The notes: generated by a model not told the origin, from the letters alone. Positions 5,982 to 24,720 are shown, counted from the stretch's first letter. The stretch is DNA of 51,601 bases from Campylobacteraceae bacterium (GCA_016744535.1 JADGEE010000007.1:1-51601), one strand, 5' to 3'. Program-made: numbers and translations.

Positions 5982-5987
5982 TAACAT

Positions 5988-8471: not shown

Positions 8472-8473
8472 AT

Positions 8474-9970
8474 TTAAGCTCTTATCAAAAATAGTTTAAA
8501 TAGTTTAAAAATTAATGCAATAAAATTATATTCTAAATTAGATTCAAATAAAGTTATCTTTTTTTCATCTTTTTTTAATACTTTTTTATTATTAACTTCA
8601 AGATAAGTAACTTTTTTATCATTTAAATTATCTAACTCATCAACTTTTATAACTCTTATACCATTAAATTTAGTATTATTTGAGTGATAATTATTATAAT
8701 CTAAAATGCAAATACCGGTGATATTAATCTCTTTTAAAAGAAGCATATTTTTAAAAAGATATACAATAAATTTACCATCTCCAATTAAAACTACATCTTT
8801 ACCTATGGCATTTTTCAATTTAGTTGATATTCTCTTTCTTAAATATATATTCATAATTTTTTGTACATATTTTCTTATATAGTGATAAAAAGTATTATAT
8901 GTTCTAAAAAAGTAGAGTTTTTTTAGGCTATTTTGAATAAATTTTAATTCACTATCCATTTTATTTTTATCAATATCTACAGAATAGGTATAATCAAAAA
9001 GACTATTAACTCTATATGGAAAATAAGTTGTAAAGAATTTTAAATATAATAAAAACTTATTATTTACTGGTTTAAAATTTTTATTTAACTTCTTATAATC
9101 TGTATAACTATCACTTTTTATCTCAAAATCTAAAGCACAACCTTCACTTAAATTAGACATACAAGCCATATTATCACTATTTTTAAAGCTTCTATCTACT
9201 AAACTCCAGTAATCAGAGGCATAACACTCTATAAGATCTTTATTTGAATCTGTAAATTTTTTTGGATTAATTGCACCATAAAGAGTATTAAAAGCTTTTA
9301 TATGAATATTTTGACTATCATTAAATTTGTAATTATAGCCTTTCCAATTACTTGGTATACCTACCTTTAAAGAGTAAAAATAATCATTATATGCCCTAAT
9401 ATTATCTATTTTATTAAATATTAAATTTTCATCTATGTAACCATCTTTTTCAAGTATATTAAAAAAATATGATTCTATATTTTCATCATGTGATATTCTA
9501 AGAGGATGATATATTATTAAATCTTTACCTTTCATAATAAAAGATAATATATTAGATAAAAAATATTTTGAATATAAAAGTTCAGGAAGTATTAATATAT
9601 TATATGAATTATTTTCATAACTTTTTTTTAAACTATGTTTTAGTGATTGGTGAAAGATATGGTTACTTTTTGACATATTAGGACTATATATATTAAAACA
9701 ATCCAATATATTTATACTATCTTTTAAAAGCTCTTCGTCAAAAATTATATTATCAAAAAAATTAGTTAATTCGTTAAATTTATTTAAGTTTTTTAAATAA
9801 TTTTTAGCATCGTTATCTGTATAAATAGCAAATTCTGTATAGAAATTATCTTTTAAAATTAATTTAGCTTCTTCTGTAAATAGAGATTTAATAGCAAAAT
9901 TTAAAAATAGTTCTGTATATTTTTCACCCCAAACAACAACTGTAAATCTTAATGAAATTTTCTCTTTCAC
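8474..9970 (-). CDS. glycosyltransferase-like protein with C-terminal Rossmann-like domain
   Basis: 498 aa, not confidently assigned to a known family. The N-terminus (FTVVVWGEKYTELFLNFAIKSL, then YTEFAIYTDND) reads like a GT-A-type fold, and a helix-rich middle follows (ILPELLYSK, YHPLRIS). Residues about 388-498 form a small Rossmann-like module (DVVLIGDGKFIVYLF, then CILDYNN and GIRVIKVDEL) similar in layout to the N-terminal module of the radical SAM protein at 13209-14480. It starts with GTG in a GTGA overlap with the nucleotidyltransferase gene, so the two are translationally coupled. It may attach the sugar activated by that enzyme; this is inference. Confidence 0.5.
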   Translation of the reverse strand: MKEKISLRFTVVVWGEKYTELFLNFAIKSLFTEEAKLILKDNFYTEFAIYTDNDAKNYLKNLNKFNELTNFFDNIIFDEELLKDSINILDCFNIYSPNMSKSNHIFHQSLKHSLKKSYENNSYNILILPELLYSKYFLSNILSFIMKGKDLIIYHPLRISHDENIESYFFNILEKDGYIDENLIFNKIDNIRAYNDYFYSLKVGIPSNWKGYNYKFNDSQNIHIKAFNTLYGAINPKKFTDSNKDLIECYASDYWSLVDRSFKNSDNMACMSNLSEGCALDFEIKSDSYTDYKKLNKNFKPVNNKFLLYLKFFTTYFPYRVNSLFDYTYSVDIDKNKMDSELKFIQNSLKKLYFFRTYNTFYHYIRKYVQKIMNIYLRKRISTKLKNAIGKDVVLIGDGKFIVYLFKNMLLLKEINITGICILDYNNYHSNNTKFNGIRVIKVDELDNLNDKKVTYLEVNNKKVLKKDEKKITLFESNLEYNFIALIFKLFKLFLIRA

Positions 9971-10692
9971 ATAACTCCTTCTTTATAATTTGTTAAAAAA
10001 AATTTATATATTTGTGCTATTGCATAGCTCTCTAGTGTGCCTATATCTCTGTGATATATATTATTATGGAAAATATATATTTTATTTAAAAAATTTGGTA
10101 TTACTTCTGTACTTAAATCTATCTCTTTTTTATTAAGTTTCTCTAAAAATTCAAATATAGAAGGTTCCATTATGTATACAGCTGCATTTGCTAAGTTTGT
10201 TGGAGGATTTTTTACTTTTTCAAAAAATTCTTCTACTACACCATCTTTATTAAGAGATATTACACCACACTGTGTTGGATTATCTGTTGTAAATGTCATC
10301 ATTGTTATTTCACAACCATTTGGTCTATTTTTATGAGCATCTACAAAAGCATTAAAATCACAAAAACTAAGATTATCAGCGTGTACAACCATAAATACTT
10401 CATCTTTTAAATACTCTTTAGAATTTAAAATAGTACCTCCTGTAAGCAATAACTCCTCTTCATAAATTAATTTAATCATATTTTTATATTTAGAGTTTTT
10501 TACATACTCTTGTACTTGCTCTTTTAAATAGTGTGTATTTACTATAAATTCATTTATTCCAATATTAGATAAATTATCTAACCAATACTCCATTAACGGT
10601 TTTCCATCTATTGGTACTAAACATTTTGGAATATAATTAGTAATAGGTCTTAATCTTGTGCCTAATCCAGCAGATAAGAGTAGTGCTTTCAT
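9967..10692 (-). CDS. sugar-1-phosphate nucleotidyltransferase (HddC/RmlA-like)
   Basis: 241 aa, typical of the short nucleotidyltransferase family. The N-terminal signature LSAGLGTRLRPIT followed by PKCLVPIDGKPL is complete; the VHADN block near residue 128 holds the metal-binding aspartate, and HRDIGTLESY lies near the C-terminus. Such enzymes make NDP-sugars from a sugar 1-phosphate. It overlaps the HldE-like gene by 4 nt, so a heptose 1-phosphate (as with HddC guanylyltransferases) is a sensible guess. That would give two nucleotidyltransferase domains in the pathway, so one may act on a different sugar. A hexose substrate cannot be excluded. Confidence 0.75.
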   Translation of the reverse strand: MKALLLSAGLGTRLRPITNYIPKCLVPIDGKPLMEYWLDNLSNIGINEFIVNTHYLKEQVQEYVKNSKYKNMIKLIYEEELLLTGGTILNSKEYLKDEVFMVVHADNLSFCDFNAFVDAHKNRPNGCEITMMTFTTDNPTQCGVISLNKDGVVEEFFEKVKNPPTNLANAAVYIMEPSIFEFLEKLNKKEIDLSTEVIPNFLNKIYIFHNNIYHRDIGTLESYAIAQIYKFFLTNYKEGVM

Positions 10693-12161
10693 TCTAAAAT
10701 CTCTTTCTTTATCTCTTCTAAATTAAGAGGAATATTTCCAACTCTTGCAACTTGACAAGCAGCTGCAATAGATCCTATATATGCACTTTCAATTACACTT
10801 GCTCCTGCTGATATAGCCATTGCTGAAGTTATCAAAAGAGAATCCCCAGCTCCAGCTACATCTTTTGGATTAGAATTAAGTGCTTCGATTTGATCTGTTA
10901 TCCATTTCTCTTTATCATTACTATCTCTATTTGCATGAATTAATACACCTTCAGAACCAAGAGTAATAAAAACATTTTTAATGCTACTTTTATTTCTTAA
11001 TTTTTCTGCTAATACAATTAATCCTGATTCAAAATCATTTACTCCAAGTCTAGCTTCTCTCTCTGTTGGTGTAACTAAAGACATATTTTTAAATTTTGAA
11101 ATATCTCCTGTCTGTGATGACGATTGACTATCAGCTACTATCATAATATTTTTTTCTAAGCCTAATTTAGTGATTTTATCAATTAACCTTTGAGGAAGAG
11201 CCCCATAACTAAAATCAGAAAATACTATTAAATTTTTATTATCTATAACTTCTGTAATATCTTCAAAAATTTTATCCTGAGTCTCTATATCTATATGATG
11301 TTGTTTTAAATGATTTACTCTAAGAAGTGTCTTTTTATTAGCTCTAAATCTCTGTTTTAGAGTAGTTGGTCTTGATGTATCAATATATGTATAGGCATTT
11401 ATTTTATACTCTTTTATTTTATCTTTTGTAAAATCAGCATAATTATCATTACCTAATATTGTAAAAAAATCAACTTTTGCACCAAGTCCAGATGAGTGTG
11501 CTGCTACAATACCTGCTCCTCCAATAAACATATTTGATGAGATGGGACTAACTACAATTGTAGGGTCTTCTTGACTCATCCCCAAAGGCTCACAAGTAAT
11601 ATACTCATCTATAATTGTATCACCTATAACTAATATATTTAAATTTTTAAATTTATCTAAAATAGATACTATTTTATTTGGATCTATTTTATGCCTTTTA
11701 GTATAAGCCAATGGTTTTTTAATATTAGAAATATCTACATCCATAAACTCATTACGTAAAAGCGATAATGATGAAAATCTTATATCACCTGAGCCAAATA
11801 TAAGCTTTCCACCATAAGATTCAATAACTTTTAGTTCAATGTTGAATTTATTTTCATGTTCATTACCTTTTACTACTATATCTGGTCTCAACTCTTTTAT
11901 AAATTCAATAACATCAGTCTCTATAATAAAAGAGTAATCCACAAATAAAGAGTGAGATAATGCTTCTAATCTTAAATTAGCATCTATCAATATATCATCA
12001 CTAGAATCACCTTCTAGTCCTACAACTAGAAAACCACCATTATCTTTTGCAAATTTAAGTAATCTAAGGTGTCCTGGATGAAGAATGTTAAATTTACCAT
12101 AGACAAATACTATTTTTTTATCTTTTGCTTGTTCAATAATTTGCTCTATATTATTAAGCAT
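10689..12161 (-). CDS. HldE-like bifunctional nucleotidyltransferase/PfkB kinase with reversed domain order
   Basis: 490 aa. The N-terminal ~150 residues are a cytidylyltransferase-like domain with the HxxH nucleotide-binding motif (H28-P-G-H31, after YGKFNIL) and VVKGNEHEN. Residues about 165-490 are a PfkB/ribokinase-type domain (NILVIGDTIIDEY; GGAGIVAAHSS; C-terminal DVAGAGDS with probable catalytic Asp440). Known HldE proteins have the kinase first and the adenylyltransferase second; here the order is inverted. Neighbouring gmhA- and gmhB-like genes support a role in making ADP- or other NDP-heptose from sedoheptulose 7-phosphate. It is coupled by 4- to 8-nt overlaps to both neighbours. 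The ordinary LPS-core HldE may be encoded elsewhere. Confidence 0.8.
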   Translation of the reverse strand: MLNNIEQIIEQAKDKKIVFVYGKFNILHPGHLRLLKFAKDNGGFLVVGLEGDSSDDILIDANLRLEALSHSLFVDYSFIIETDVIEFIKELRPDIVVKGNEHENKFNIELKVIESYGGKLIFGSGDIRFSSLSLLRNEFMDVDISNIKKPLAYTKRHKIDPNKIVSILDKFKNLNILVIGDTIIDEYITCEPLGMSQEDPTIVVSPISSNMFIGGAGIVAAHSSGLGAKVDFFTILGNDNYADFTKDKIKEYKINAYTYIDTSRPTTLKQRFRANKKTLLRVNHLKQHHIDIETQDKIFEDITEVIDNKNLIVFSDFSYGALPQRLIDKITKLGLEKNIMIVADSQSSSQTGDISKFKNMSLVTPTEREARLGVNDFESGLIVLAEKLRNKSSIKNVFITLGSEGVLIHANRDSNDKEKWITDQIEALNSNPKDVAGAGDSLLITSAMAISAGASVIESAYIGSIAAACQVARVGNIPLNLEEIKKEILE

Positions 12162-13215
12162 CGAAACACCACTGTCTAATAGGCTTTTTACTTAAGGTTG
12201 CTTTTAACATACGAATTTTAGCTGTAATTGAAGCTAATAAAAATAGTTTGTTTTTTAGAAAAATAGGAATCCATATGCTACCACCTCTTGGTGTTTGATA
12301 ATATTCAATAACATCTATATATATTTCCGAAGAGCAAACATTTTTAAGTTCATAATACGCCTCAAAAAATGAAAATGGACTATTTTTTTGAAAAATTCTA
12401 ATTATATGTCCCATTATGATGTATGAATAATAATACTTAAGATAATCAAAATTATTATTTGCAAGGCGATTGGAGACTACGCTATAAGAGGTCTCTAACA
12501 TATGAAATTTATCTTTTGTTACTTCGTCAGACAAAGAAGCATAATCTAAATTTACACAATAATGGTAAAGATTATTATTTAATACATATACTTCTTTAAT
12601 TTGAATTAAATAGCATATATTAAATAAAACATCTTCATATCTTCTCAACTTCGTATCAAATTGAAGATTATTTTTTCTTATTACATCAAGCACATATAGT
12701 CTGCCCCAAATATTGCCAGCTGTATGTGCTCTTGCACGAATTGATTGGGAATGTTCCAAGTCAAGCGTATTTAAATTCAAAAAATCATCTATAAATATTT
12801 TTTTAGATTCTAGCTTGAAGGGATTACGTGCCACTTCCTTATTTTCACTAAACATATGGCTCATATATGTACAAATTGCAAGTTCTATATTATTCTTTGT
12901 TATAGTTGCAAGTAAAACTTCAACGATTGAGCTATCTATGAAGTCATCTGCATCAACGAACATCAAATACTCTCCTTTTGCCAAGCTAATACCAAGATTC
13001 CTCGCAGCAGATGGACCAGCATTTTTTGATGATGTATATCTTATTCTGTTGTCAATAGCTGCGTAATTCTCACATATTGCTCCACTATTATCAGTAGAAC
13101 CATCATTAATTAATAAAACTTCAATATTTGCATATGACTGAGAAAGTACACTATCAATACAAGTTGATAAAACAGATTCAGCATTATAAACTGGAATTAC
13201 AATAGAGACTAACAT
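12154..13215 (-). CDS. GT2-family glycosyltransferase
   Basis: 353 aa. A classic GT-A start, VSIVIPVYNAESVLSTCIDSVLSQ, is followed by LLINDGSTDNS, NAGPSAARNLGIS and the metal-binding DxD in FVDADDF (about residues 88-94). The C-terminal half (about 215-353) is helical with a basic end. It likely adds one sugar to a lipid-linked glycan on the cytoplasmic side. It overlaps both neighbours (7 and 8 nt). Its DNA, with that of the next upstream gene, looks less AT-rich than the surrounding operon, which suggests separate acquisition. Donor and acceptor are unknown. Confidence 0.87.
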   Translation of the reverse strand: MLVSIVIPVYNAESVLSTCIDSVLSQSYANIEVLLINDGSTDNSGAICENYAAIDNRIRYTSSKNAGPSAARNLGISLAKGEYLMFVDADDFIDSSIVEVLLATITKNNIELAICTYMSHMFSENKEVARNPFKLESKKIFIDDFLNLNTLDLEHSQSIRARAHTAGNIWGRLYVLDVIRKNNLQFDTKLRRYEDVLFNICYLIQIKEVYVLNNNLYHYCVNLDYASLSDEVTKDKFHMLETSYSVVSNRLANNNFDYLKYYYSYIIMGHIIRIFQKNSPFSFFEAYYELKNVCSSEIYIDVIEYYQTPRGGSIWIPIFLKNKLFLLASITAKIRMLKATLSKKPIRQWCFDA

Positions 13216-14480
13216 AGGTTACTACTATCAATATTCAAATATTTTTTATAAGGCAAAGGCTTTTTTACTTGTATGGCCGCTTCTATAAGTCCAACGCTAT
13301 AGTCTCGGCCTGGACAAAAAGAGCAAGCTTTCAGATATTTTTGTCCTGAATTTAATTTAGCAATTTTTCTTTTTATAGAATCATCGTCTAATTTCATTAA
13401 ATCAAATTCATCCTCATAATATTCAGGGGGAATGGCTTTAAGATTTGTAACATTTGCAGAAAATGGGCAAGTATAAACTTTTCCGTGCAACAAAGTTAGT
13501 GCATCATTTACACAACAATTTCCAAAAACACTGCACAACTCATTCTCTGTTCGATTTACAAATTCTATTTTCGCACAGTCTTGCCATTTATCTACATCAT
13601 ATGCAATAAAATGTATTTTCATTTTAATTAATAAATTTTTTAATTCTGTAATCTTTTTAGATATTTTTCCATAGTCTGAAATTATCAATGTAACTTTAGA
13701 ATTTTTCATTGATTCAATCGTATCACTATTTGGAATTATTGTGCCATTTGTAAATATAGTGATTTTTTTACATTTCTTATAATTTGACAACTGTTTTATA
13801 ACCGTAGATATATCTTTATAAAGAAATGGCTCGCCACCAATTACTCTAGCCTCATATAATTCATCTATATTATGCATGAAACGCTCAATTGAAGTCTCTA
13901 GTACTTTAGTGTCATTATCTTTAGGTTTCTCATAGTATTGCATTAAATTTGAACAATTCTCACAACGTAATGAGCATTTTTCAGTTAGTACTACATCTAA
14001 ACTTTTTACTTTTATTACATCTGGTTTTTTGGATGCGTCAATGGCAAACATATATGAATCAAGCATCCAGACCAGGCGGTCAATTGGTGCAAATGCTTTC
14101 ACTTTGGACAAATCAAGTTCAAAAAATAAAAAATCACAATCAAATTTCATGAGATTATCGTTACTTTTAATTTGCTCTGACATGTAATTAAACCTAAGAG
14201 ATGCTATTACTACAGCTGTGTATGAGGTGGATTTTTTTAGTTCATTGACAGATATTACTTTATAGCCCAGAAAATCATTACCGCAATTGGTATCGTTGTA
14301 ATCACAAAAACAACTTATATTAATATTATGTTTTTTTAATGCATGCAAAGCAAGTGCTCCATAATTGCCTGTCCCAAATATAATTATATCTTTATAGTTT
14401 TTCAAGCTTTGCAAGTTATCTTCGATGTTAAAAATTTTTATATCTGATTTATAATTCAACGGGCTATATTTATATTTCAT
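13209..14480 (-). CDS. radical SAM enzyme with N-terminal Rossmann-like domain
   Basis: 423 aa. Residues about 30-120 form a Rossmann-like module (DIIIFGTGNYGALALHAL, FCDYND, GYKVISVNEL). A radical SAM domain follows with the CxxxCxxC cluster in KCSLRCENC (about 169, 173, 176) and a GGEPF block. The C-terminal third has further cysteines (CSVFGNCC, YTCPFS, ACSFCPGR) that could hold one or two extra Fe-S clusters, as in SPASM-type enzymes. An in-frame TTG lies at 14483, but AAAGGAT is only 3 nt from it and 6 nt from the ATG at 14480, so I prefer the ATG. Substrate unknown; the operon suggests a sugar or sugar nucleotide. Confidence 0.75.
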   Translation of the reverse strand: MKYKYSPLNYKSDIKIFNIEDNLQSLKNYKDIIIFGTGNYGALALHALKKHNINISCFCDYNDTNCGNDFLGYKVISVNELKKSTSYTAVVIASLRFNYMSEQIKSNDNLMKFDCDFLFFELDLSKVKAFAPIDRLVWMLDSYMFAIDASKKPDVIKVKSLDVVLTEKCSLRCENCSNLMQYYEKPKDNDTKVLETSIERFMHNIDELYEARVIGGEPFLYKDISTVIKQLSNYKKCKKITIFTNGTIIPNSDTIESMKNSKVTLIISDYGKISKKITELKNLLIKMKIHFIAYDVDKWQDCAKIEFVNRTENELCSVFGNCCVNDALTLLHGKVYTCPFSANVTNLKAIPPEYYEDEFDLMKLDDDSIKRKIAKLNSGQKYLKACSFCPGRDYSVGLIEAAIQVKKPLPYKKYLNIDSSNLC

Positions 14481-14493
14481 CAATTATCCTTTA

Positions 14494-16293
14494 TCATTTA
14501 TTTGCTCTCATTCTTTGTACAATTCTTTTAAGTGAACGCTCTATTCTCTTTTTAGACATATCATATATATCTGGATATATTTCTTTTAGTTGAGGAACTT
14601 CTATAGAGTTATTTTGCCTTCTCTCTTTTTTTAAATAAGATATCATTAAGTGAGTATACCAAAATAAATTTTTTATAAACCAATCTACTAATTTATCTGG
14701 AAAAACTGTAATTAATTTAGAAGCAAAAGAAATAGCAACTAATCTCTCTATCTTCATTTTATAGTAAATTATCTTATTATGTTTTTTATAATGATTAGAT
14801 GTTAAATTATATCTTGCTCTCGTAGCATTAAAAAGATTTAATATATCTTGATTTATTTTACTCTTTTTAGAGATGTTTTTATAAAAATATCTGGTCGCCT
14901 CAAGAATTATTAGCCGTTTCCAAAACATCACATCTTTTAATGGTATTCCAGTAACATTAACATAAGTATATAGTCCAGCTTTTTGCTCAACTAATCCCTC
15001 TAAATATTTCTCTTCCTCATCAATAGTTTTAAAAATACCAATTTCTCTAGCATAATCATAAGTTGGCGTTCCTGGAAATATTATAAGTAAATTAGTTGAT
15101 ATATAACCAGAATTAAAAAATTCACTTGGTTCAACTCCAATTTGCAAACAAAGCTCACCTAACATCTTTCCAGTTTCTCTGACTGTATCATTATTCTCAC
15201 CAGGAAGTCCAATCAACATCTGTAAACGAGACATAATACTATTTTGCATTGTATTTACTATTCTAGATAAAACTCTCTGAACTGTAAATTTTTTTTCCAT
15301 AACATCTAATATAACTTGGCTTCCAGATTCAACACCATATTTTAACTCTACACAGTTATGATTTTTATAAAAAATAATATCATCATCATCTACATTCACA
15401 CATCTCACTCCACTAGCAGACCAGAACAGTTTATGTTTTTTAAATAACTTTGCAACTTCGTGTGCTTGTCTCTTATTAGCACCGAAATTTTCATCCATTA
15501 TATTAATAAAACCTACATTAAATTTCTCTATTAAATAAATTAAATATTTTTCAATCTCTTTAACATCATAAACATCATAACCTGAAGATGATCTTTGACA
15601 AAATGTACATGTTGCCGTACACCCTTTGGAAGTATTAATTGAACCAACACCTTTATTAAGTGCTAAATATTCAGCAGTTATTTTATTATGTATCCATGCT
15701 GCTGAATCAGTGGCTTTACTATCATATGAAAAGTTAAAAATTTCATAATCAGGGTTTTGCAGATTATTTACTTTCTCCCCATAACCATTACTATATAATT
15801 TACTTTTATATTTATAAGCAATCCCCTTAATCTTTTTCAACTCTTCATGAACTATCTCTCTTCCATATTTTTTATGATAATTCAAAAGCTCTATCCATGA
15901 CTTTTCACCAGCACCTAAAACACATATATCTAAATCTGTTCTCTCTAATAAAACATGGTAAGTAATAGCCATATTACCACCAACAATAATTAAACAATCT
16001 TTTAGTGTTTCTCTAATAATTTTTGACATTCTTTTAACTTGAGAGTATGAACTAGATATTACCGCACTCATACCTACTACTGTAGGCTTAACTCTTAAAA
16101 GATATTCTCGTATCTTTTGGTCATCAGGTAATATTGTTGCAGTATCATAATAATCATATGTCTCACTATCATAACCAAATTGTTCCATATATTTTATTAT
16201 AGATTGAATCCCCATACGAACTGGTTTTGTATCTTCATTATTTTTAATAAGTTCAACTGATTCATTAGATATTGAAAACAATGATATCATCAT
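14494..16293 (-). CDS. B12-binding-type radical SAM protein
   Basis: 599 aa. The first ~180 residues have the layout of a cobalamin-binding domain as in BchE-type enzymes (VVGMSAVISSSYSQVKRM, IIVGGNMA, ICVLGAGE), although no DxHxxG cobalamin-ligand motif is visible. The radical SAM core carries C225-C229-C232 (GCTATCTFC) followed by NIMDENFGANKR, YGVESGSQ and LIGLPGENNDT. About 190 extra residues at the C-terminus are rich in Lys and aromatic residues. Members of this group methylate unreactive carbons or rearrange rings; in this operon a sugar or its acyl/lipid carrier may be the substrate. Two ATGs (16293 and 16290) are possible starts; the first is used. Confidence 0.8.
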   Translation of the reverse strand: MMISLFSISNESVELIKNNEDTKPVRMGIQSIIKYMEQFGYDSETYDYYDTATILPDDQKIREYLLRVKPTVVGMSAVISSSYSQVKRMSKIIRETLKDCLIIVGGNMAITYHVLLERTDLDICVLGAGEKSWIELLNYHKKYGREIVHEELKKIKGIAYKYKSKLYSNGYGEKVNNLQNPDYEIFNFSYDSKATDSAAWIHNKITAEYLALNKGVGSINTSKGCTATCTFCQRSSSGYDVYDVKEIEKYLIYLIEKFNVGFINIMDENFGANKRQAHEVAKLFKKHKLFWSASGVRCVNVDDDDIIFYKNHNCVELKYGVESGSQVILDVMEKKFTVQRVLSRIVNTMQNSIMSRLQMLIGLPGENNDTVRETGKMLGELCLQIGVEPSEFFNSGYISTNLLIIFPGTPTYDYAREIGIFKTIDEEEKYLEGLVEQKAGLYTYVNVTGIPLKDVMFWKRLIILEATRYFYKNISKKSKINQDILNLFNATRARYNLTSNHYKKHNKIIYYKMKIERLVAISFASKLITVFPDKLVDWFIKNLFWYTHLMISYLKKERRQNNSIEVPQLKEIYPDIYDMSKKRIERSLKRIVQRMRANK

Positions 16294-16302
16294 AAATTTT
16301 CC

Positions 16303-17415
16303 TTAGATAAAATTAATATGCTGTGGCTTTTCGCCTTTAGGTTCTCTTAATTTTATGTCACCTTTTTCATAAGAGTCTAAAAATTCATTTACTTTATGTT
16401 GCAAACATAATGAACCACACATTTTTTGAGCATTAAAATTTGGTGATGCTAAATAGTTCATCACTTCCCAATATCTATCACTTTGTAACATATCTTTAAA
16501 TCTTGTATGTACAATATTACCTATATGAAATTTTTTATATTTTTCGTTAAACAACATTCCACAAGGAGCTACAAGTCCTGAACCTGACATTTGTATTTGA
16601 AATGGAGGGCCATAACATCTTTGATAATCTCTTTTACCATCAGAACTTATTTTAGACCATTTTACTACCACTTTATACTCATCATCAGAATAACTCTCTG
16701 CCTCTTTTAATATAGGTTCTATCTCTGCATATTTTGAATAATCAACTCCCAATGCACCATCTTCACTATCTGATGTATGTTTTATTACCAAATAATCTGG
16801 TCTTAACTCTTTACCTAATTTTGCAAGTGGAATAACTTGGTCTGCATCTTGTGGCATTAATACCATTTGCATACCTATTGTTACATCAAGATTATTTTTT
16901 TTCTTTATCTCTACCATATCTTTAATATTTTGACAAACTTGTTCAAACCAAGCCTCTTTAACACCCATAACTTCCGAATATCTTTTTGCTTCACCAGCAG
17001 AAATATTTACTCTTAGGTAAGTAAGATGAGGTAAAATTCTCTCTAAAGCATCTTTTTTTAAATTGTATCCGTGTGTAGCAGTTGCCATTGATAGCCCAAG
17101 TTTAGAGCCTCTCACTACCATATGTTCAAAGTGTGGAGATAATGTACTCTCTCCATCACTTACTAAACTAATAGCTTTAACTCCAACTTCTACACAATCA
17201 TCTAAAAAATTATCAACAACTTCTCTTGTTATATCAAATCTGTCATTTTCTTGTAATCTTGCATAACAAAAACTGCAACCAAAATTACAAGCTCTAGTTA
17301 ATGACATATCTATTGTAATAGGAGCAATTCTTTCACCTTTTGCCCACTTCTCTATCCTCTCTTTATGCCAAGCTATTTTTGTAGCATCTAAAATCAACTC
17401 TTTGTTTTCAATCAT
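16303..17415 (-). CDS. radical SAM enzyme with C-terminal four-Cys (SPASM/Twitch-like) domain, paralogue 1
   Basis: 370 aa. The SAM-cluster cysteines are C43, C47 and C50 (CNFGCSFC); DGESTL replaces the usual GGEP-type block. Four further cysteines at about 267, 285, 333 and 337 match those of the paralogue at 20398-21492 and can hold an auxiliary Fe-S cluster. Both proteins also share a DVTIGMQM/DCTIGVQM block and the same C-terminal pentapeptide HINFI. Likely chemistry is radical dehydration, epimerisation or oxidation of a sugar, or of another small molecule made by this operon. It sits 4 nt after the unknown gene at 17420-18127. The role is inferred from family and context only. Confidence 0.78.
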   Translation of the reverse strand: MIENKELILDATKIAWHKERIEKWAKGERIAPITIDMSLTRACNFGCSFCYARLQENDRFDITREVVDNFLDDCVEVGVKAISLVSDGESTLSPHFEHMVVRGSKLGLSMATATHGYNLKKDALERILPHLTYLRVNISAGEAKRYSEVMGVKEAWFEQVCQNIKDMVEIKKKNNLDVTIGMQMVLMPQDADQVIPLAKLGKELRPDYLVIKHTSDSEDGALGVDYSKYAEIEPILKEAESYSDDEYKVVVKWSKISSDGKRDYQRCYGPPFQIQMSGSGLVAPCGMLFNEKYKKFHIGNIVHTRFKDMLQSDRYWEVMNYLASPNFNAQKMCGSLCLQHKVNEFLDSYEKGDIKLREPKGEKPQHINFI

Positions 17416-17419
17416 AATA

Positions 17420-18127
17420 CTATTTCCTACTCTTTTGTCTTACTCTATTATTATCTATTTTTTCTGTATACATTACCTCAATAGGTACTTTTAAAACTTT
17501 TTGTATATATTTTTCTAACTCTAATAAAAAGTGACCAACATTTTTTAAACTTTCGTTATAGACTAAAAATTCTACTCTCATTGGCTTAATAACAGATATA
17601 GAATAGTCACAATCATTTTGATTTATATCTTTAAAATAGCTATCTATTAATTCATTTAATTTTTCTTTTTTTATATTATCACTTAACTTTACCCACTCTT
17701 TTACTGATGCCACTATATAAGCATTACCTGTTGGTGCATTTTTTATTTTTTGTTTATATTGTTTAAAACAATCTCTTATTAAGTCTTGAAGTATTAAAAA
17801 CTCTTTTAATGTATTATTTGGTGTGATAATTCCATCAATAGGCTTTTTACTTGCATCTCTTAATAAATATTCTAATCTTAATACTCCATGATTGCTAGCT
17901 TCTATAATTGGTAAATTAATAATAACACTACAAAAAGCATTTAAAATACCTTTCATAATATCATCTATATTACTTTCATTATAGCTGACACTTGTTATCA
18001 TATGACTTTTTGTATCTACTTCTAACTTTAATGTAATATCACTACTTATAGATATTATCTCTATTTTATTTTCTACAAATTTGAGTATATTATTTTTATA
18101 TATTTCTATCACTATTTTCTTCCTCAT
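17420..18127 (-). CDS. uncharacterised 235-aa protein
   Basis: I do not recognise this protein. It is soluble (no membrane segment or signal peptide), acidic to neutral with a very basic C-terminus (NNRVRQKSRK), and mixed alpha/beta in appearance. Notable segments are an N-terminal KIVIEIYKNNILKFVENKIE, an ASNHGVLRLEYLLRDASKKP segment near 91-110, and APTGNAYIVASVKEWVKLSDN near 140-160. It starts with ATG in a 4-nt overlap with the truncated transketolase subunit gene and ends 4 nt before a radical SAM gene. Strict coupling to the transketolase pair suggests a partner subunit or the next step of the same pathway; this is inference. Confidence 0.7.
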   Translation of the reverse strand: MRKKIVIEIYKNNILKFVENKIEIISISSDITLKLEVDTKSHMITSVSYNESNIDDIMKGILNAFCSVIINLPIIEASNHGVLRLEYLLRDASKKPIDGIITPNNTLKEFLILQDLIRDCFKQYKQKIKNAPTGNAYIVASVKEWVKLSDNIKKEKLNELIDSYFKDINQNDCDYSISVIKPMRVEFLVYNESLKNVGHFLLELEKYIQKVLKVPIEVMYTEKIDNNRVRQKSRK

Positions 18128-18612
18128 CTACATCTTAAATAAACTGGACCATTATGTTTAAACATCTGCTTAATTTGCTTTTTTAAATTATCTTTATTTG
18201 GTGCAAGTAGTAAAAAATTTTTAAAAATTGACATCATAGTAATATCATCTTCATCCATACAATGACTTCTACCTAATTTATCAAAATAGTTATTAGCCCC
18301 AACTCCAATTAATTTAATATTCATATTATGCTCGTTCAAGTCATATCTAATTTGCTCATAAGCTCTCATTACTAAAAATGGAACTTGCGAATAAACTAAA
18401 GGTTTTAGTCCTGCTAAATACATTCCTCCAGCCATACTAATAGTTGCTTGTTCACAAATACCAACATTAAAGGTCCTATTTGAGTAATTATCAAAAAAAT
18501 CGTCCAGTACTGCAAAACCCATATCACCAACTAAAAGAGCCATCTTTTCATCATATTTAAAGTAGTTATAAACTTCACTCATAACCTCTTGTTTTGAAAC
18601 TAACTCACTCAT
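18124..18612 (-). CDS. transketolase-like pyrimidine-binding subunit lacking the C-terminal domain
   Basis: 162 aa from the ATG at 18612. It holds only the TPP pyrimidine-binding domain: LLVGDMGFA near the start, NVGICEQATISMAGGMYLAG with the TPP-activating glutamate (about E54), and GRSHCMDEDDI with a conserved histidine (about H117). The usual second half (transketolase C-terminal domain, a further ~130 residues) is missing, and the frame ends cleanly at TGA before the next gene. GTG codons at 18621 and 18615 are also in frame, but AGGTGG is placed about 8 nt before the ATG. It overlaps the TPP-domain gene, so the two subunits are made together. The substrate is uncertain. Confidence 0.8.
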   Translation of the reverse strand: MSELVSKQEVMSEVYNYFKYDEKMALLVGDMGFAVLDDFFDNYSNRTFNVGICEQATISMAGGMYLAGLKPLVYSQVPFLVMRAYEQIRYDLNEHNMNIKLIGVGANNYFDKLGRSHCMDEDDITMMSIFKNFLLLAPNKDNLKKQIKQMFKHNGPVYLRCR

Positions 18613-19399
18613 CACTACCACCTATTACATAACCATCTTCAGTTGGACATCTAAAATGGTGAGAAATTGAATTTTCTAATATATCAATCCCTTTACCCTT
18701 TACTGTATCACATACTAAAATAGAAAAATTGCTATTTTTATTGTTAAAAAATTTATCAATAGAGTTAAACAACTCATCTTCATTATGTCCATCAACTTTA
18801 TTAAAATTATCACTATAAGAGTTTAATACTTTTGCCAATCTATCATTATCTAAACCAACGTCGGCAACTCTATCCATAGCTTGTAGACCATTTGCATCTA
18901 CAATTAAGAGTAAATTATCAAGTTTAAATCTATAAGCGAGTGCTAATGCTTCAAAATTACTTCCCTCTTGCATTTCGCCATCACCAACTATACAAACAAC
19001 TCTATTTGGTAAATTTTGCATTTTAAATGCTTGTGCTATCCCAACAGCTATAGGTAAACCGTGTCCTAATGAACCAGTTGAAGCCTCAATCATATAATCT
19101 AAATTTTGTGTCAAACACCCTTTTATAGTTGCACCATCTCCATAAAATTTTTCTAATTCAAAATCTGGTAAAAAACCAAGCTCATTTAATATGATATAAT
19201 AAGAATAAGAGCCGTGTCCTTTACTAAATATTACTCTATCTCTAGTATTATCGGTTGCATCACTTTTATTATATTTTAAAAAGTCACGAAATAGAACTGT
19301 TAGCATTTCAACACAAGAGAGTGAAGGGGCTAAGTGTCCAGCTCCTGTTTTACAAGATAATTCAATCGTTTTTTTTCTAATTTCATAAGAATTTAACAT
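18605..19399 (-). CDS. transketolase N-terminal (TPP-domain) subunit
   Basis: 264 aa. A complete thiamine-diphosphate/Mg-binding domain: GAGHLAPSLS with H22, FSKGHGS with H62, TGSLGHGL, and the GDG...N motif (GDG at 139-141, Asn170). Together with the next gene it forms a split transketolase-like enzyme that transfers or couples a two-carbon ketol unit. It starts with ATG overlapping the epimerase stop (TAATG). In this operon it could supply sedoheptulose 7-phosphate to the GmhA/HldE/GmhB enzymes, or add a two-carbon branch to a ketosugar. Both are inference; a housekeeping full-length transketolase is presumably encoded elsewhere. Confidence 0.85.
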   Translation of the reverse strand: MLNSYEIRKKTIELSCKTGAGHLAPSLSCVEMLTVLFRDFLKYNKSDATDNTRDRVIFSKGHGSYSYYIILNELGFLPDFELEKFYGDGATIKGCLTQNLDYMIEASTGSLGHGLPIAVGIAQAFKMQNLPNRVVCIVGDGEMQEGSNFEALALAYRFKLDNLLLIVDANGLQAMDRVADVGLDNDRLAKVLNSYSDNFNKVDGHNEDELFNSIDKFFNNKNSNFSILVCDTVKGKGIDILENSISHHFRCPTEDGYVIGGSDE

Positions 19400-20388
19400 T
19401 ATTTTTTACCTAAGTATTTAAACCAATCTTTGGTGGCTTTGCCAATATTTTTTTCATCCCATAGTGGAGCTTCTCGCCATAATTCTATATTTTCAAGCAT
19501 AATTTTAACTCCATCTTCAAATTTCACTTTAGGTTTCCATCCAATAGCCTCTTTTAATTTTGTAATATCTGCATATGTACAATCTGGCTCACCTGGTCTT
19601 TTTGGAATATAAACTTTCTCACCACCAAGAAGCTCAACCAAATAGTTTACGCTATAAGTGTTATCACTACCTACATTAAATATCTCTCCAGTTATGTTTG
19701 AAATAGCCATAGAGTAACAAGCATCTACAATATCAGTTACATAAGTAAAGTCTCTAGTTTGTTTGCCATCACCCACTATTGTAAGAGGTTTATTATTTAA
19801 TATTTGTGCTAAAAAGACACCAAAAACTGCACCATAAGTACCACTTGTTCTATGCCTTATGCCATATACATTAAAAAATCTCATAGATACAACAGGGATA
19901 TCATAAATTTGTCCCCAATGCATAACATACTGCTCACCTACTGTTTTTGTAAGTGCATAAGGATATTCTGGTTTTATAGGAGATATTTCAGGTGTAGGGT
20001 AAATTTCTGGAATACCATAACAAGATGAAGATGCAGCATATACAAATTTTTTTAAGTTTTTAGATTTTTTAGAGGCTTCTAAAACATTAATTGTTCCATC
20101 TACATTAGCTTTATGATATTTTAATGGATTATTTATTGACGGAACAATGTCTGCAAGTGCTGCATAGTGAAACACATAATCTACATCTTCAAAATACTCA
20201 TCTAAGTTAATTGAATAATCACTTATATCTATATTCAAAAATATTACTTTATCTTTATGGTGAGCAATATTTTGTAATTGACCATTTGCTAAATTATCTA
20301 TAACCGTTACTTCAAAATTTCTATCTATTAATAAGTCAACCATATGAGAGCCTATAAACCCAGCACCTCCTGTAACTACTGCTTTCAT
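19399..20388 (-). CDS. NAD-dependent NDP-sugar epimerase/dehydratase (extended SDR)
   Basis: 329 aa, typical length. The glycine-rich NAD site is VTGGAGFIGSHM (4-15), followed by DNLANG, the catalytic SSS near 124 with YALTK (YxxxK), RFFNVYG, and a substrate-binding C-terminal half (VGDGKQTRDFTYV). It belongs to the GalE/UDP-sugar 4-epimerase-like branch. The substrate is presumably the NDP-sugar made by the adjacent heptose enzymes or a UDP-hexose. It lies 9 nt after a radical SAM gene and overlaps the transketolase gene by 1 nt. Dehydratase or decarboxylase activity is less likely than epimerisation but cannot be excluded. Confidence 0.82.
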   Translation of the reverse strand: MKAVVTGGAGFIGSHMVDLLIDRNFEVTVIDNLANGQLQNIAHHKDKVIFLNIDISDYSINLDEYFEDVDYVFHYAALADIVPSINNPLKYHKANVDGTINVLEASKKSKNLKKFVYAASSSCYGIPEIYPTPEISPIKPEYPYALTKTVGEQYVMHWGQIYDIPVVSMRFFNVYGIRHRTSGTYGAVFGVFLAQILNNKPLTIVGDGKQTRDFTYVTDIVDACYSMAISNITGEIFNVGSDNTYSVNYLVELLGGEKVYIPKRPGEPDCTYADITKLKEAIGWKPKVKFEDGVKIMLENIELWREAPLWDEKNIGKATKDWFKYLGKK

Positions 20389-20397
20389 TAATATTCC

Positions 20398-21492
20398 TTA
20401 TATAAAATTAATATGCTTATTTGGATGTTTTAATTTCCATAAATATCTATTTACCTCATCCATTCTACAATTTACTCTACAATTTTTTATATCTAATTCA
20501 TTTTTAATATAATTATAAGATTTTTTTCTCTTATCACTTTCCCATATCTCTTCAAAACTATTTTCATAAATATTTCCATAACAAAACTTATCTTCTCCTA
20601 GATATGCACTACATCCAAATACATTTCCGTCAGTTGCAATATAAGCCCAAAAAAATGGAGTGGAATAACATTTATCGTAAGGTTGTTTTTTTTCAATATA
20701 TTTTTTCATTGTATTTGCTCTAAAAACTACATTAAAGTTTTCATCAGAAATCTCTTTTAACTCATCTTCTATATCTACCATTTTAGAGTAATCTATATTT
20801 TCATATTGAGTAGTTTCACTAAAAAGATGTTGTGAATATGGCTTTACAACCAAGTAATTAACTCCTAAGCTTTTACAAGATGATGCTAAAATTTTTGCTT
20901 CATCTTTATTCTCTGGAAGTAATAACATCTGTACACCTATTGTGCAATCTAAATTATTTGCTCTTTTATGCTCTATTGCATATTTTATATTGCTCATAAC
21001 TCTCTCAAAATCTTTCTCTTTTGTTTGATGAATTTGAGCATAAGTCTTAGCAGTTCCTGCGTTTAAACTAATTTTTATCCAAGAGCAATTCTCAACACAT
21101 CTTTCAATATTTTTCTTATTAAGAGGTACAAAATTAGTAGTAAGAGAGGTATCAATTCCTACACTCGTACAATGCTCTACTATTAAATCTAAATCTTTAA
21201 ATAGTAGCGGTTCACCCTCTCCTGCAAACATAACACTTTTAACACCTTTTTTTGCCATATTTGTAAGTGTATTTTTTAAAACTTCAAAATCTAATCCTAT
21301 GTTCTCATATCCCATATAGTCTAATGCACAAAAAGTACATCTATGGTTACAGCCTCCATAAGGGGAAATTTCCACATAAATTGGATATACACTCTTTAAT
21401 TTTTCCCACTCACTATTAGATTCATACCATCTTGAGACTCTTGTTGGATGATAAATTAACTTATGGCTATCAATAGCATACTTATCACTCAT
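20398..21492 (-). CDS. radical SAM enzyme with C-terminal four-Cys (SPASM/Twitch-like) domain, paralogue 2
   Basis: 364 aa. The SAM-cluster cysteines are C48, C52 and C55 (CNHRCTFC). The block AGEGEPLLF follows, then ISLNAGTAKTY, and four C-terminal cysteines at about 275, 294, 338 and 342 that align with those of the paralogue at 16303-17415; an extra Cys is present at about 304. The protein ends in HINFI like its paralogue. It overlaps the gmhA-like gene by 8 nt and is followed by the epimerase, so it likely acts on a heptose-type intermediate; that is inference. The two paralogues may do successive steps or form a pair. Confidence 0.8.
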   Translation of the reverse strand: MSDKYAIDSHKLIYHPTRVSRWYESNSEWEKLKSVYPIYVEISPYGGCNHRCTFCALDYMGYENIGLDFEVLKNTLTNMAKKGVKSVMFAGEGEPLLFKDLDLIVEHCTSVGIDTSLTTNFVPLNKKNIERCVENCSWIKISLNAGTAKTYAQIHQTKEKDFERVMSNIKYAIEHKRANNLDCTIGVQMLLLPENKDEAKILASSCKSLGVNYLVVKPYSQHLFSETTQYENIDYSKMVDIEDELKEISDENFNVVFRANTMKKYIEKKQPYDKCYSTPFFWAYIATDGNVFGCSAYLGEDKFCYGNIYENSFEEIWESDKRKKSYNYIKNELDIKNCRVNCRMDEVNRYLWKLKHPNKHINFI

Positions 21493-22066
21493 TTATAGTA
21501 CCTTTATGGATATAATATGAGTATATAATATGGTCAAGTATCATATGAACATCTTCAACTAAACCATACTCACCTTTTGGTGCATCTACATGAAAGTTTA
21601 TATTACTTAAAGATTTTAACTCTCCACCATCAAAACCGGTCACACCAATAATATTTGTGCCTATCTCTTTAGCATATTGAACAGCTTTTATAATGTTTGG
21701 TGAGTTTCCGCTACAAGATATAGCTATAATTATATCTTTTGGTTTTAATATATTTTTAAGTTGCATATAAAAAATATTTTCATATCCAATATCATTAGCA
21801 ATTGCTGAAGTTACAGCTGAATTATCTCCCAAAGAGATAATATCAATATCTCTTATATCTCTTCTTTTTAAGCCTATACCTAAATCATTTGCCATATGTG
21901 AAGCAGTTGCAGAACTTCCTCCATTGCCTATTACATAAACTTTAGAGTTATTTTTTATAGTTTTTTCAATACTAATTTGAATATCTTTTATTGCATCTAA
22001 ATCTATTTGAGTTAATAATTCTTTTAATCTATTTATATAATTAATTGTAAATTCTTTAATTTCCAT
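21485..22066 (-). CDS. GmhA-like SIS-domain sugar-phosphate isomerase
   Basis: 193 aa. A single SIS domain: GNGGSSATASHMANDL (47-62) and ISCSGNSPNIIKAV match the phosphoheptose isomerase signature, and LVEDVHMILDH (169-179) matches the zinc/active-site region. From memory of E. coli GmhA, the zinc-site residues are His61, Glu65, Gln172 and His180; here the matching residues look like H57, D61, E171 and H179, so two are changed. GmhA converts sedoheptulose 7-phosphate to heptose 7-phosphate. The neighbouring GmhB- and HldE-like genes support that role, but the altered site may mean another ketose phosphate. Separated from gmhB by one base. Confidence 0.8.
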   Translation of the reverse strand: MEIKEFTINYINRLKELLTQIDLDAIKDIQISIEKTIKNNSKVYVIGNGGSSATASHMANDLGIGLKRRDIRDIDIISLGDNSAVTSAIANDIGYENIFYMQLKNILKPKDIIIAISCSGNSPNIIKAVQYAKEIGTNIIGVTGFDGGELKSLSNINFHVDAPKGEYGLVEDVHMILDHIIYSYYIHKGTINE

Positions 22067-22067
22067 T

Positions 22068-22580
22068 TTATAACCCTTTTCCTTTTAACTTAGAAATAGA
22101 TATAGTTTCATTTTCATCTAAAAGTATATTTTTACCTATTTTAGCTTTTTGACCTGCTAAAATATCTCTTTTTTTATCTCCTATTAAAATTGATTTCTCT
22201 AAATTTATATTAAACTCTTTTTTAGCTTTTAAAATCATACCCGCTTTTGGCTTTCTACATTCGCACTCTATTTTATACTTTTCTTTAGCATTAGTTGGAT
22301 GATGTGGACAATAATAAACCTTTTCTATTCTAACATTTTTATTTTTAAACTCTTCTATCATCCATTTTGTCAATTTTAAAAAATCATCTTCACTATAATA
22401 ACCTCTTCCTATTCCAGATTGATTAGTTATTACAAATATCATAAATCCTTTATCTTGGAAAAATTTACAAACTTCAAATATACCTTCTATAAATTCAAAA
22501 TCATCTATTTTATAAAGATAATTTTTATCTTTATTTATTACTCCATCTCTATCTAAAAAAAGAGCTTTAGAAAGTTTCAA
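22068..22580 (-). CDS. gmhB: GmhB-like HAD-IIIA phosphatase
   Basis: 170 aa, normal for D-glycero-D-manno-heptose 1,7-bisphosphate phosphatase. The HAD nucleophile motif is D10-R-D12 (LDRDGVIN); TNQSGIGRG (52-60) is motif II, CRKPKAGM gives the lysine of motif III, and IGDKKRD (D135, D139) is motif IV. The GmhB zinc loop is present: C91-P-H93-H then C106-E-C108. It begins with TTG in a TTGA overlap with the upstream methyltransferase gene. It removes the C7 phosphate between the kinase and nucleotidyltransferase steps of the HldE-like enzyme at 10689-12161. Confidence 0.85.
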   Translation of the reverse strand: MKLSKALFLDRDGVINKDKNYLYKIDDFEFIEGIFEVCKFFQDKGFMIFVITNQSGIGRGYYSEDDFLKLTKWMIEEFKNKNVRIEKVYYCPHHPTNAKEKYKIECECRKPKAGMILKAKKEFNINLEKSILIGDKKRDILAGQKAKIGKNILLDENETISISKLKGKGL

Positions 22581-23623
22581 AATTCTCTTTTTTTTAATAA
22601 AATATGCACTTCTGATGAAGTTTCACTCTTATCTAATTGAAGTTGTAATCCGTCAATTAAAGGTAAAAATTTTTTATCAAATCCATCTAATGCCGTTAAT
22701 GGTTGAGAGTTTTTCTCCATCATAACTCTTAAACTTCTATATAAATCGTGAATATCTGAGCTAAACCACCATTCTGATTTTATTTCAAAATTATATCTAT
22801 TTACTAAATAATTTATAGATTCTTTTGTATATAAATGTGTATGTCCACTATATAAAATTCTCTCAAAAACATCAGGAAAAGCCAATTGAAAATATGTAGT
22901 TAAATTAAATAGTGGCACAGCTAAATAGAAATATTTTATATTTTTATTATTATTTATAGCTTGAAAAAATATACTTGGAGATTGTAAATGCTCTAGAACC
23001 ATAATAGCTGATAAAACATCAACTTTTGCACTCTTTATATAATCTATTATCTCATTTAAACCAACCTCTTTTAATTTATTGGTTTTTAATATCTCATTTC
23101 CCATTTCAACTTGTGACTTAGATACCTCAATTCCTTCTATTTTATCTATATTAAACTCTTTATTCATTGCATACACAAGATGTCCAACACCTGTACCTAC
23201 ATCTAAATATGATAAATTAGAGGGATCAATATTATCCTCTTTTAGTGATTTAAATAAAAAATCAACTTTAGGTACATAAACATTTTTTACTTTATTTAAA
23301 TAATTTTCTACATCTACTCTTTGATATTCTCTTCTATAATCATCTGGATTCTCTTTTGTATAGTTAAATTCTAAAAACTCATTAGTATCTTCAAATTGAC
23401 CATTTAAATGTCCACAAGTTTTACATTGATAATAATTAATGCTTTTTCTAATTAAAGAGACTTCTATTAAGTTACTAGAACATATTTTACAATTTAATCT
23501 TTTAGGTTGTAACTTATAAAAATCTATAGATTTTTTCTCTTCTGATACTAATTTATCATTTTGTTCTGAAAAATAACTCTTAGTAGATATTACATCTTTT
23601 ATACTTTTACCATATTTTTTCAT
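22577..23623 (-). CDS. SAM-dependent methyltransferase with N-terminal zinc-ribbon-like motif
   Basis: 348 aa. An N-terminal CKIC...CKTC pair (about residues 46-75, RLNCKICSSN and QCKTCGHLN) can bind zinc, as in some sugar methyltransferases. The class I SAM-binding motif is LDVGTGVGHLVYAM (about 135-148), followed by LSAIMVLEHLQSPSIFF. The last 100 residues have no recognised motif. It probably methylates a sugar or sugar nucleotide of the glycan encoded here, or methylates a carbon centre prepared by other enzymes of the operon. Start ATG; the stop overlaps the gmhB-like start by 4 nt. Confidence 0.78.
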   Translation of the reverse strand: MKKYGKSIKDVISTKSYFSEQNDKLVSEEKKSIDFYKLQPKRLNCKICSSNLIEVSLIRKSINYYQCKTCGHLNGQFEDTNEFLEFNYTKENPDDYRREYQRVDVENYLNKVKNVYVPKVDFLFKSLKEDNIDPSNLSYLDVGTGVGHLVYAMNKEFNIDKIEGIEVSKSQVEMGNEILKTNKLKEVGLNEIIDYIKSAKVDVLSAIMVLEHLQSPSIFFQAINNNKNIKYFYLAVPLFNLTTYFQLAFPDVFERILYSGHTHLYTKESINYLVNRYNFEIKSEWWFSSDIHDLYRSLRVMMEKNSQPLTALDGFDKKFLPLIDGLQLQLDKSETSSEVHILLKKREF

Positions 23624-23640
23624 AAATTTATACCTTAAGT

Positions 23641-24720
23641 TTATTTATCAAATATATATCTATTTTCACCAACACCATATTTCCATATAATATCATCTCT
23701 ATTCTTCATATTATAAATATTCTCTACTCTATCAAAATCAACACCTCTAGTTAATCTTTTAATATTTTTAAATCCAATATTACTTAAAATCTCTTCTAAC
23801 TCCTTTGGAGTAAGCCTTGTATTAATAGGAACCATAATATGGTCAAGTATATAAAAAATTCTATTCTCAGGAACACCAAACATTTTAAATAAATCTCTTG
23901 CATATTGATGATTAACAGGCTTCATCACAAGTCTTAATAACTCTACAACATCCCAGTGTACTCCACCTGGTTTTTCCATTAAATATAAAAATCCCTGTGC
24001 ACCACTTTTCATAATTCTAAAAATTTCTCTCAAACCTTCTTGAATAGATACAGTGTGATGTAAAACACCATTTGAAAAAACAAAATCAAATTTACCATCT
24101 TCGAAAGGTAATTTTAAAACATCTCCTTGTTTATATTCAACATTTTCAATATTTTTTAAATCTTTTCTATAATTAGCTGTCTTGAGATTAATTACACTCC
24201 AATCGATTCCATAAACCTTTTTAAAACCCATCTTTTTTAAAGCAAGAGTATATCTTCCTCCACCACAACCGTCATCTAAAGCTACTTTATTTTCAATATT
24301 ATCTATAACAATACTATTTCTATTAAATCTTGTTTTTAATAACTCAAAAGCCTCTTCATAGTAATGGTATTCACTAAAATTTTCAAAAAGTTTTCCATAG
24401 TGCTCTTTTGTTATTTCATCAAAAGCACTCTTCTCTTTTGATAGAGATTTAAAATCTATTTTATCTTTATATATCTCTAAGTTATTAGCTAATATTTTTG
24501 CTACTTCAATTTCAGATAGTAAAATTTTACTTATTTCTGAAACAGAGAACTCTTTCGTTTGTAATTTTTCTATTTTATGAAATAAATCATAAGTTATATA
24601 AGTTCTTATAAAAAAGCTATCCTCTTCTTCACTTAAATTTGAAAAAAAATCAACAAACTTTTTTGCCTCTTTTGAGTATGGAGAACCATTTGTTAAACAA
24701 TCTATATCTGCTGTAAACAA
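23641..24720 (-). CDS. class I SAM-dependent methyltransferase
   Basis: 359 aa. The first ~130 residues are helical and specific to this protein; the methyltransferase core starts near 145 with ALDDGCGGGRYTLAL, followed by YGIDWS, GDVLKLPFEDGKFDFVFSNGVLHH and FRIMKSGAQGFLYL. This is the Methyltransf_11/25-like layout. The TTG start at 24720 is supported by AAGGAG 7 nt upstream. It follows the CMP-nonulosonate synthetase gene after 2 nt. Likely acceptor: a sugar of the glycan; the sequence alone cannot show which. Confidence 0.78.
   Translation of the reverse strand: MFTADIDCLTNGSPYSKEAKKFVDFFSNLSEEEDSFFIRTYITYDLFHKIEKLQTKEFSVSEISKILLSEIEVAKILANNLEIYKDKIDFKSLSKEKSAFDEITKEHYGKLFENFSEYHYYEEAFELLKTRFNRNSIVIDNIENKVALDDGCGGGRYTLALKKMGFKKVYGIDWSVINLKTANYRKDLKNIENVEYKQGDVLKLPFEDGKFDFVFSNGVLHHTVSIQEGLREIFRIMKSGAQGFLYLMEKPGGVHWDVVELLRLVMKPVNHQYARDLFKMFGVPENRIFYILDHIMVPINTRLTPKELEEILSNIGFKNIKRLTRGVDFDRVENIYNMKNRDDIIWKYGVGENRYIFDK

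Follow-up and report, generated by a model that had tools for sequence, protein, structure and literature searches.

A conserved radical SAM and thiamine-enzyme cassette of a Campylobacteraceae bacterium, probably for a two-carbon-branched surface sugar

The window analysed here is the whole stretch of 51,601 nucleotides, one 51.6-kb contig (G000:C128) of the 3.0-Mb draft genome of a Campylobacteraceae bacterium. An operon on its minus strand (8474-24720) encodes heptose-type enzymes, a split transketolase and four radical S-adenosylmethionine (SAM) proteins. We found that a core of this operon, anchored by the radical SAM gene rsamA and paired with a thiamine diphosphate (ThDP) enzyme, recurs in at least ten phyla, and we propose that this core cassette probably makes a nucleotide-activated sugar with a two-carbon (C2) branch for a surface polysaccharide.

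The core cassette and its spread

An earlier note on this DNA had described these enzymes as one coupled gene set and had proposed that it makes an unusual modified heptose or a longer sugar. Gene calls, Pfam and NCBIfam scans and intact motifs bore out that the named genes lie in one coupled minus-strand set: the scans upheld their enzyme classes, and all catalytic motifs searched for were intact in the operon proteins. The gene run extends from about 26874 down to 293, reaching past 8474-24720 on both sides, and its junctions mostly overlap or are about 20 bases or less apart. The core genes, together with the GmhB-like gene, are:

22068-22580, minus strand: GmhB-like bisphosphate phosphatase (TIGR00213 above cut-off)
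21485-22066, minus strand: GmhA-like SIS isomerase (TIGR00441 and PDB phosphoheptose isomerase matches)
20398-21492, minus strand: rsamB, radical SAM/SPASM-like protein with one auxiliary cluster and an HINFI C-terminus
19399-20388, minus strand: epim, short-chain dehydrogenase/reductase (SDR) epimerase/dehydratase
18605-19399, minus strand: tkN, N-terminal (PP) half of the split transketolase
18124-18621, minus strand: tkC, C-terminal transketolase half with the Pyr domain only
17420-18127, minus strand: u17420, rsamA partner gene, 235 amino acids with a weakly IscU/NifU-like first domain (no Pfam match)
16303-17415, minus strand: rsamA, cassette anchor, DesII-like radical SAM protein with a 4-Cys auxiliary cluster and an HINFI C-terminus
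10689-12161, minus strand: reversed HldE, nucleotidyltransferase domain followed by a PfkB (heptose-7-phosphate kinase-like) domain
9967-10692, minus strand: ntp, sugar-1-phosphate nucleotidyltransferase

We searched 299 genomes of the host order with rsamA and found relatives in 15, some of which matched the rsamB kind only (L022 and L023 are one genome split between contigs). The closest relatives in the order share the arrangement rsamB-epim-tkN-tkC-(u17420)-rsamA-hldE-ntp, sometimes with gmhA ahead, and the same arrangement was found in Pseudoalteromonas and in other families of the host order. Scanning one genome per species yielded 278 rsamA relatives, of which the best 80 (64-90% identity) were analysed; many contigs end within the flank, and 40 of the 80 loci have essentially full 10-kb flanks. 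The best 80 of the 278 loci come from at least ten phyla, named here as in the records, many of which are metagenome bins, so that an individual name may be in error: Campylobacterota, Pseudomonadota, Bdellovibrionota, Myxococcota, Spirochaetota, Elusimicrobiota, Omnitrophota, Planctomycetota, Acidobacteriota, Bacteroidota, Fidelibacterota and others. The hosts include marine Pelagibacteraceae and SAR116 as well as cultured Azospirillum, Nisaea, Pseudoalteromonas and Malaciobacter. Among the cultured carriers, which come from soil or sea, are Malaciobacter halophilus DSM 18005 (L039), Azospirillum oryzae KACC 14407 (L116) and Nisaea denitrificans (L063). On plasmid unnamed1 of Azospirillum oryzae KACC 14407, the cassette reads SDR, SDR, PfkB kinase, SIS protein, SDR, E1 alpha, E1 beta, DegT, DegT, hypothetical protein and radical SAM protein, with generic annotation throughout; identities to the window proteins are 69% for rsamA, 58% for epim, 39% for gmhA, 27% for hldE and 18% for u17420.

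The core thus comprises rsamB, epim, the split transketolase, u17420, rsamA, the reversed HldE, ntp and often GmhA. Because the same gene order recurs in other phyla as well as in further families of the host order, this core is not a chance assemblage. Co-occurrence elsewhere was the earlier note's own test, and the HINFI radical SAM, transketolase and heptose-type genes indeed travel together across genera and phyla, which supports an undescribed pathway to an unusual modified or longer sugar that uses heptose-type enzymes, transketolase and the two HINFI proteins. To the gene set that was confirmed in this way we add u17420, which the note had not named. Taken together with the C2-branch proposal as a whole, it is probable that the core is a horizontally exchanged cassette.

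The remaining operon genes behaved differently. Only a same-genus genome has a strong relative of the B12 radical SAM protein (77%), other matches being 20-37% identical, and the Rossmann-radical SAM protein, both methyltransferases and the family 2 glycosyltransferase (GT2) have no relative or a weak match at most in the 80 loci, the same-genus genome aside. One functional unit that includes all four radical SAM proteins is therefore not supported, and a mechanism shared by the four was dropped because two of them are not conserved; the methyltransferases and the glycosyltransferase likewise fall outside the conserved set. These genes bear on the alternative that the operon makes ordinary nucleoside diphosphate (NDP)-heptose amid unrelated neighbours in a surface-polysaccharide locus. 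Polysaccharide loci are mosaics, and the B12 radical SAM, methyltransferase and GT2 genes are indeed not conserved; the core, on the other hand, is kept in at least ten phyla, and its partner patterns are regular. The alternative stands for the accessory genes and is refuted for the core, and we consider it very improbable overall.

A more distant type of cassette was seen at L028-L033, with rsamB, tkN and a longer tkC, mostly an rsamA homolog, and further radical SAM proteins. It keeps rsamB-tkN-tkC-rsamA with a full-length C-half, and neither HldE nor a close epim relative was found in L028-L033. Genomes of 1.6-1.8 Mb within the order also carry this type, whose product may be a related sugar. 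Another cluster, L117 on plasmid pDCAR1 of Solidesulfovibrio carbinolicus (288-19661), has a 37.5% rsamA relative, several radical SAM proteins, methyltransferases and a transketolase C-terminal domain protein.

The ThDP enzyme beside rsamA

The transketolase had been described as split in two. Both halves are present, with the ThDP motif GDG-N and the catalytic GICEQ in their PP and Pyr domains, and the best PDB match of tkN is the N-terminal component of a split transketolase (4.9e-39). The C-terminal half, however, is a Pyr domain alone: tkC has 165 amino acids, and the Transketolase_C domain (PF02780) was not found in it. Among loci whose C-half open reading frame was recovered, the tkC-type half stops where the Pyr domain ends, or close to that point, in every close-rsamA locus with transketolase as the sole ThDP enzyme (about 162-175 amino acids, up to 195 with an earlier start). 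It is much longer where E1 is present as well and in the distant cassette type.

Three kinds of ThDP enzyme were found beside rsamA: the split transketolase, the alpha/beta pair of pyruvate dehydrogenase E1 (PDH-E1), and an acetolactate synthase (ALS) type. The split transketolase occurs in Campylobacterota, Pseudoalteromonas, Colwellia, one lambdaproteobacterium and one Pelagibacter, the ALS type in Pelagibacter with one weak case in Caulobacterales, and PDH-E1 in most other loci. On the rsamA tree, built by a quick method, the ThDP class changes at least 7 times. A ThDP enzyme lies within 10 kb of rsamA in 38 of the 40 full-flank loci. Because relatives of the host have about 2-3 Transket_pyr (transketolase/E1-type) genes per whole genome, a ThDP gene would fall by chance in only a few per cent of such stretches. 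The partner genes follow the ThDP class: rsamB is present in 14 of 16 transketolase loci and in none of the 37 E1 or 7 ALS loci, and at least two DegT aminotransferases are present in 30/37 E1 loci, 4/7 ALS loci and 1/16 transketolase loci.

The earlier note had taken the transketolase as the source of sedoheptulose 7-phosphate for GmhA. According to this reading, the split enzyme would supply GmhA, HldE and GmhB, and radical SAM chemistry would then deoxygenate, methylate or rearrange the NDP-heptose, with no C2 transfer. Transketolase does make this compound in central metabolism, and GmhA-, GmhB- and HldE-like genes are in the operon. However, the same genome encodes a separate full-length transketolase (G000:C88, 658 amino acids), the operon enzyme lacks the C-terminal domain in all close relatives, and in other relatives PDH-E1 or ALS-type enzymes, which would not produce sedoheptulose 7-phosphate, fill the slot. 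We therefore consider this supply role unlikely. A transfer of a C2 unit to the sugar suits the slot better.

Three classes of ThDP enzymes that form tertiary alcohols have been described for branched sugars, namely YerE-like decarboxylases, alphaKADH2 E1-type pairs and split transketolases, the last of these only as a proposal; their sugar-linked members make the tertiary alcohols on ketones (PMC12247030). E1-type branching has been proposed for avilamycin and paulomycin (PMC4753412) and for everninomicin (PMC10338323). For miharamycin, the acceptor ketone is thought to be the product of an oxidoreductase, itself a proposal, and the 13 putative ketone-branching split transketolases are all from Streptomycetes (PMC12247030). 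The cassette loci likewise have a ThDP enzyme of the YerE, alphaKADH2 or split-transketolase class among NDP-sugar genes, as in the pathways of yersiniose (YerE), avilamycin and paulomycin (the E1-type pairs AviB1/B2 and Pau11/12), and miharamycin and amipurimycin (split transketolase, proposed). The DegT enzymes of the E1-form cassette recall kibdelomycin, in which the branch is transaminated (PMC12247030). We suggest C2 branching mainly because the same three ThDP classes replace one another beside one radical SAM protein. Unlike the known pathways, the cassette has a conserved DesII-like radical SAM protein, u17420 and a heptose-type kinase/nucleotidyltransferase, its transketolase lacks the C-terminal domain, and its hosts are mostly Gram-negative and of many phyla. 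The gene set was not found in the open-access literature on radical SAM enzymes with transketolase, heptose, O-antigen, DegT or higher-carbon sugar.

Radical SAM proteins, heptose-type enzymes and the proposed pathway

As the earlier note had noticed, rsamA and rsamB are paralogs with HINFI ends (31% identical). The CxxxCxxC motif is present in all four radical SAM proteins of the operon. Four further cysteines (267, 285, 333 and 337) are invariant in 54/54 rsamA and 10/10 rsamB sequences, which would suffice for one auxiliary cluster but not for two, and all 68 rsamA/rsamB sequences end in His-x-x-Phe/Tyr-Ile/Val. The AlphaFold2 (AF2) model of rsamA has a radical SAM fold (predicted local distance difference test, pLDDT, 92.8). 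Its best Foldseek match is DesII (E 4.5e-16, template modelling score, TM, 0.66), followed by SuiB, SkfB and BlsE, and profile comparison matched the core with DesII (1.5e-13) and the auxiliary domain, residues 260-335, with BtrN (4.8e-12). Enzymes that act on sugars, nucleotides or aminocyclitols (DesII, BlsE, BtrN) are thus among its likenesses, and because of its DesII- and BtrN-like features rsamA is the natural candidate for the maker of a ketone. The kinship with DesII is a works-like claim only: although the fold of rsamA is nearest to DesII, sequence identity is about 14%, and the HINFI proteins do not reach the DesII family TIGR04426 (37.7 and 42.8 bits, cut-off 450). BtrN, the radical SAM alcohol dehydrogenase of butirosin, shares with rsamA the alignment of the auxiliary-cluster domain and the four conserved auxiliary cysteines, but its substrate is an aminocyclitol and its pathway is not known to include a ThDP partner. 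The top NCBIfam name for both HINFI proteins, a tungsten-cofactor maturase (TIGR04317), scored 75 of 380 bits and was set aside as superfamily likeness only.

The cassette DegT proteins match DesI (TIGR04427, 184 bits) far under the cut-off of 650, and could fit a DesI-like role or transamination of the branch. The DesI/DesII system differs in that the DegT pair is missing from the transketolase form of the cassette and a ThDP enzyme is coupled in it.

A u17420 homolog is present in 33/40 full-flank loci. Of all 65 loci with such a gene, 56 have it no more than 150 bp from rsamA. Its model (pLDDT 91.5) shows a weak but repeated likeness of the first domain to IscU/NifU (Foldseek E about 0.02, probability up to 1.00, TMt up to 0.62); the likeness is also weak by hidden Markov model (0.0069), and Pfam finds NifU_N in 3/50 members. 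H80, G99, W145 and D225 are invariant. Scaffold cysteine ligands were not found in the family, a single common cysteine (66) being present in 42/52 members, and a role as cluster donor for a sulfur-inserting radical SAM enzyme was dropped for that reason.

Of the heptose-type enzymes, the GmhB-like protein passes its cut-off (TIGR00213 202.9 bits, cut-off 149.6) and occurs in just 6/80 loci. The GmhA-like protein scores below its own (TIGR00441 108.6 bits, cut-off 209) and matches phosphoheptose isomerases in the PDB (7e-23). HldE has its domain order reversed with the HxGH and GAGD motifs intact, scores below the rfaE domain I and II cut-offs (186 of 345 and 67 of 181.5 bits), and is the sole HldE of the genome; an HldE-type protein is present in 38/40 full-flank loci. 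An SDR match was found in 37/40, with epim as one ortholog (50-82% identical across phyla), and in every locus from Campylobacterota and Pseudoalteromonas ntp adjoins the window-type hldE. The operon thus has GmhA-, GmhB-, HldE- and nucleotidyltransferase-like enzymes in common with the NDP-heptose pathway (GmhA-HldE-GmhB or HddA-HddC), but differs from it in an HldE that is reversed and falls short of the equivalog cut-offs. The genome also has, elsewhere, a separate GmhA/HddC/GmhB/HddA-like set. That second sugar cluster (L114, G000:C69, 3998-14397) contains GmhA, HddC-like, GmhB, HddA-like GHMP kinase and DegT genes, a TIM-barrel protein, a B12 radical SAM protein, two SDRs and a split transketolase whose C-half is full-length, with names taken from sequence reading and from matches. 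The cluster resembles a further pathway to a higher-carbon or branched sugar, one based on enzymes of the GDP-heptose type.

From the observed gene content, co-occurrence, ThDP class swap and kinship in fold and sequence, we infer the following substrates, step order and product. GmhA, the HldE-type kinase/nucleotidyltransferase, GmhB and ntp would make an NDP-sugar, likely a heptose, which the SDR would remodel. rsamA, aided by u17420, would oxidise a ring position to a ketone, or deaminate where DegT is present, in the manner of DesII and BtrN. The ThDP enzyme would then add a C2 carbanion to the ketone. With the minimal split transketolase of this operon the unit would be a hydroxyacetyl group, whereas the E1 or ALS-type enzymes of other loci would add an acetyl group. 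The branch or ring would be finished by rsamB here and by two DegT aminotransferases elsewhere.

It is also conceivable that the chain is extended rather than branched: rsamA would turn a terminal alcohol into an aldehyde, to which the C2 unit would be added to give a linear sugar with nine or eight carbons. Aldehydes or short keto acids are the normal acceptors of the C2 units that transketolase and ALS transfer, and anSME-type radical SAM enzymes, which oxidise primary positions, are among the fold neighbours of rsamA. The kinship with DesII and BtrN, however, points to ring ketones, and it is on ketones that the sugar-linked members of the three ThDP classes act (PMC12247030). We regard chain extension as quite improbable.

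Several observations weigh against C2 branching of a heptose. No ThDP gene was found in 16 contig-end loci and two full-flank loci, and the 80 loci, the top matches to a single query, are related by descent, so that their counts overstate independence. rsamA also resembles the peptide-modifying SkfB and SuiB. GmhA is present in just 24/40 full-flank loci, and because HldE, GmhA, SDR and ntp score below the curated cut-offs for the named activities, the sugar may not be a heptose. Sugar branching by split transketolase is itself unproven (PMC12247030). Regardless, C2 branching remains the reading that we favour. More tentatively, the cassettes might define a new, widespread class of surface sugars, C2-branched heptoses of nine carbons, made through a radical SAM-generated ketone and interchangeable ThDP carboligases, including a minimal two-domain ketone-branching transketolase. 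If true, radical SAM enzymes and ThDP carboligases would be linked in one sugar pathway in at least ten phyla, with three ThDP enzyme classes serving one partner as a natural experiment, and the branching of keto-sugars by split transketolase, open in the literature, would become directly testable.

Accessory and flanking genes

The accessory genes and one flanking gene are:

24723-25424, minus strand: PseF-like CMP-nonulosonate cytidylyltransferase (TIGR03584 180.2 bits, cut-off 205.7)
22577-23623 and 23641-24720, minus strand: two SAM methyltransferases
14494-16293, minus strand: B12-binding radical SAM protein
13209-14483, minus strand: Rossmann-radical SAM fusion (Radical_SAM 3.6e-7 and CoA_binding 4.7e-5, weak, above cut-off)
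12154-13215, minus strand: GT2 glycosyltransferase

The gene at 8474-9970 matched no Pfam family. NeuC (above cut-off) and NeuB-like genes within 293-2448 and the PseF-like gene flank the operon on both ends, and they probably provide CMP-nonulosonic acid, a second sugar, for the same polysaccharide. Two MBOAT acyltransferase genes (4533-5987 and 7020-8471) encode proteins that are 86% identical, with 97.4% DNA identity over 1239 bp, and are a recent tandem duplication or gene conversion; each adjoins one member of a diverged paralog pair (3574-4524 and 5988-7010). Between the operon and a ClpA-type gene, at about 26900-27690 on the minus strand, are frameshifted remnants that resemble a nucleotidyltransferase (MNT) and HEPN pair.

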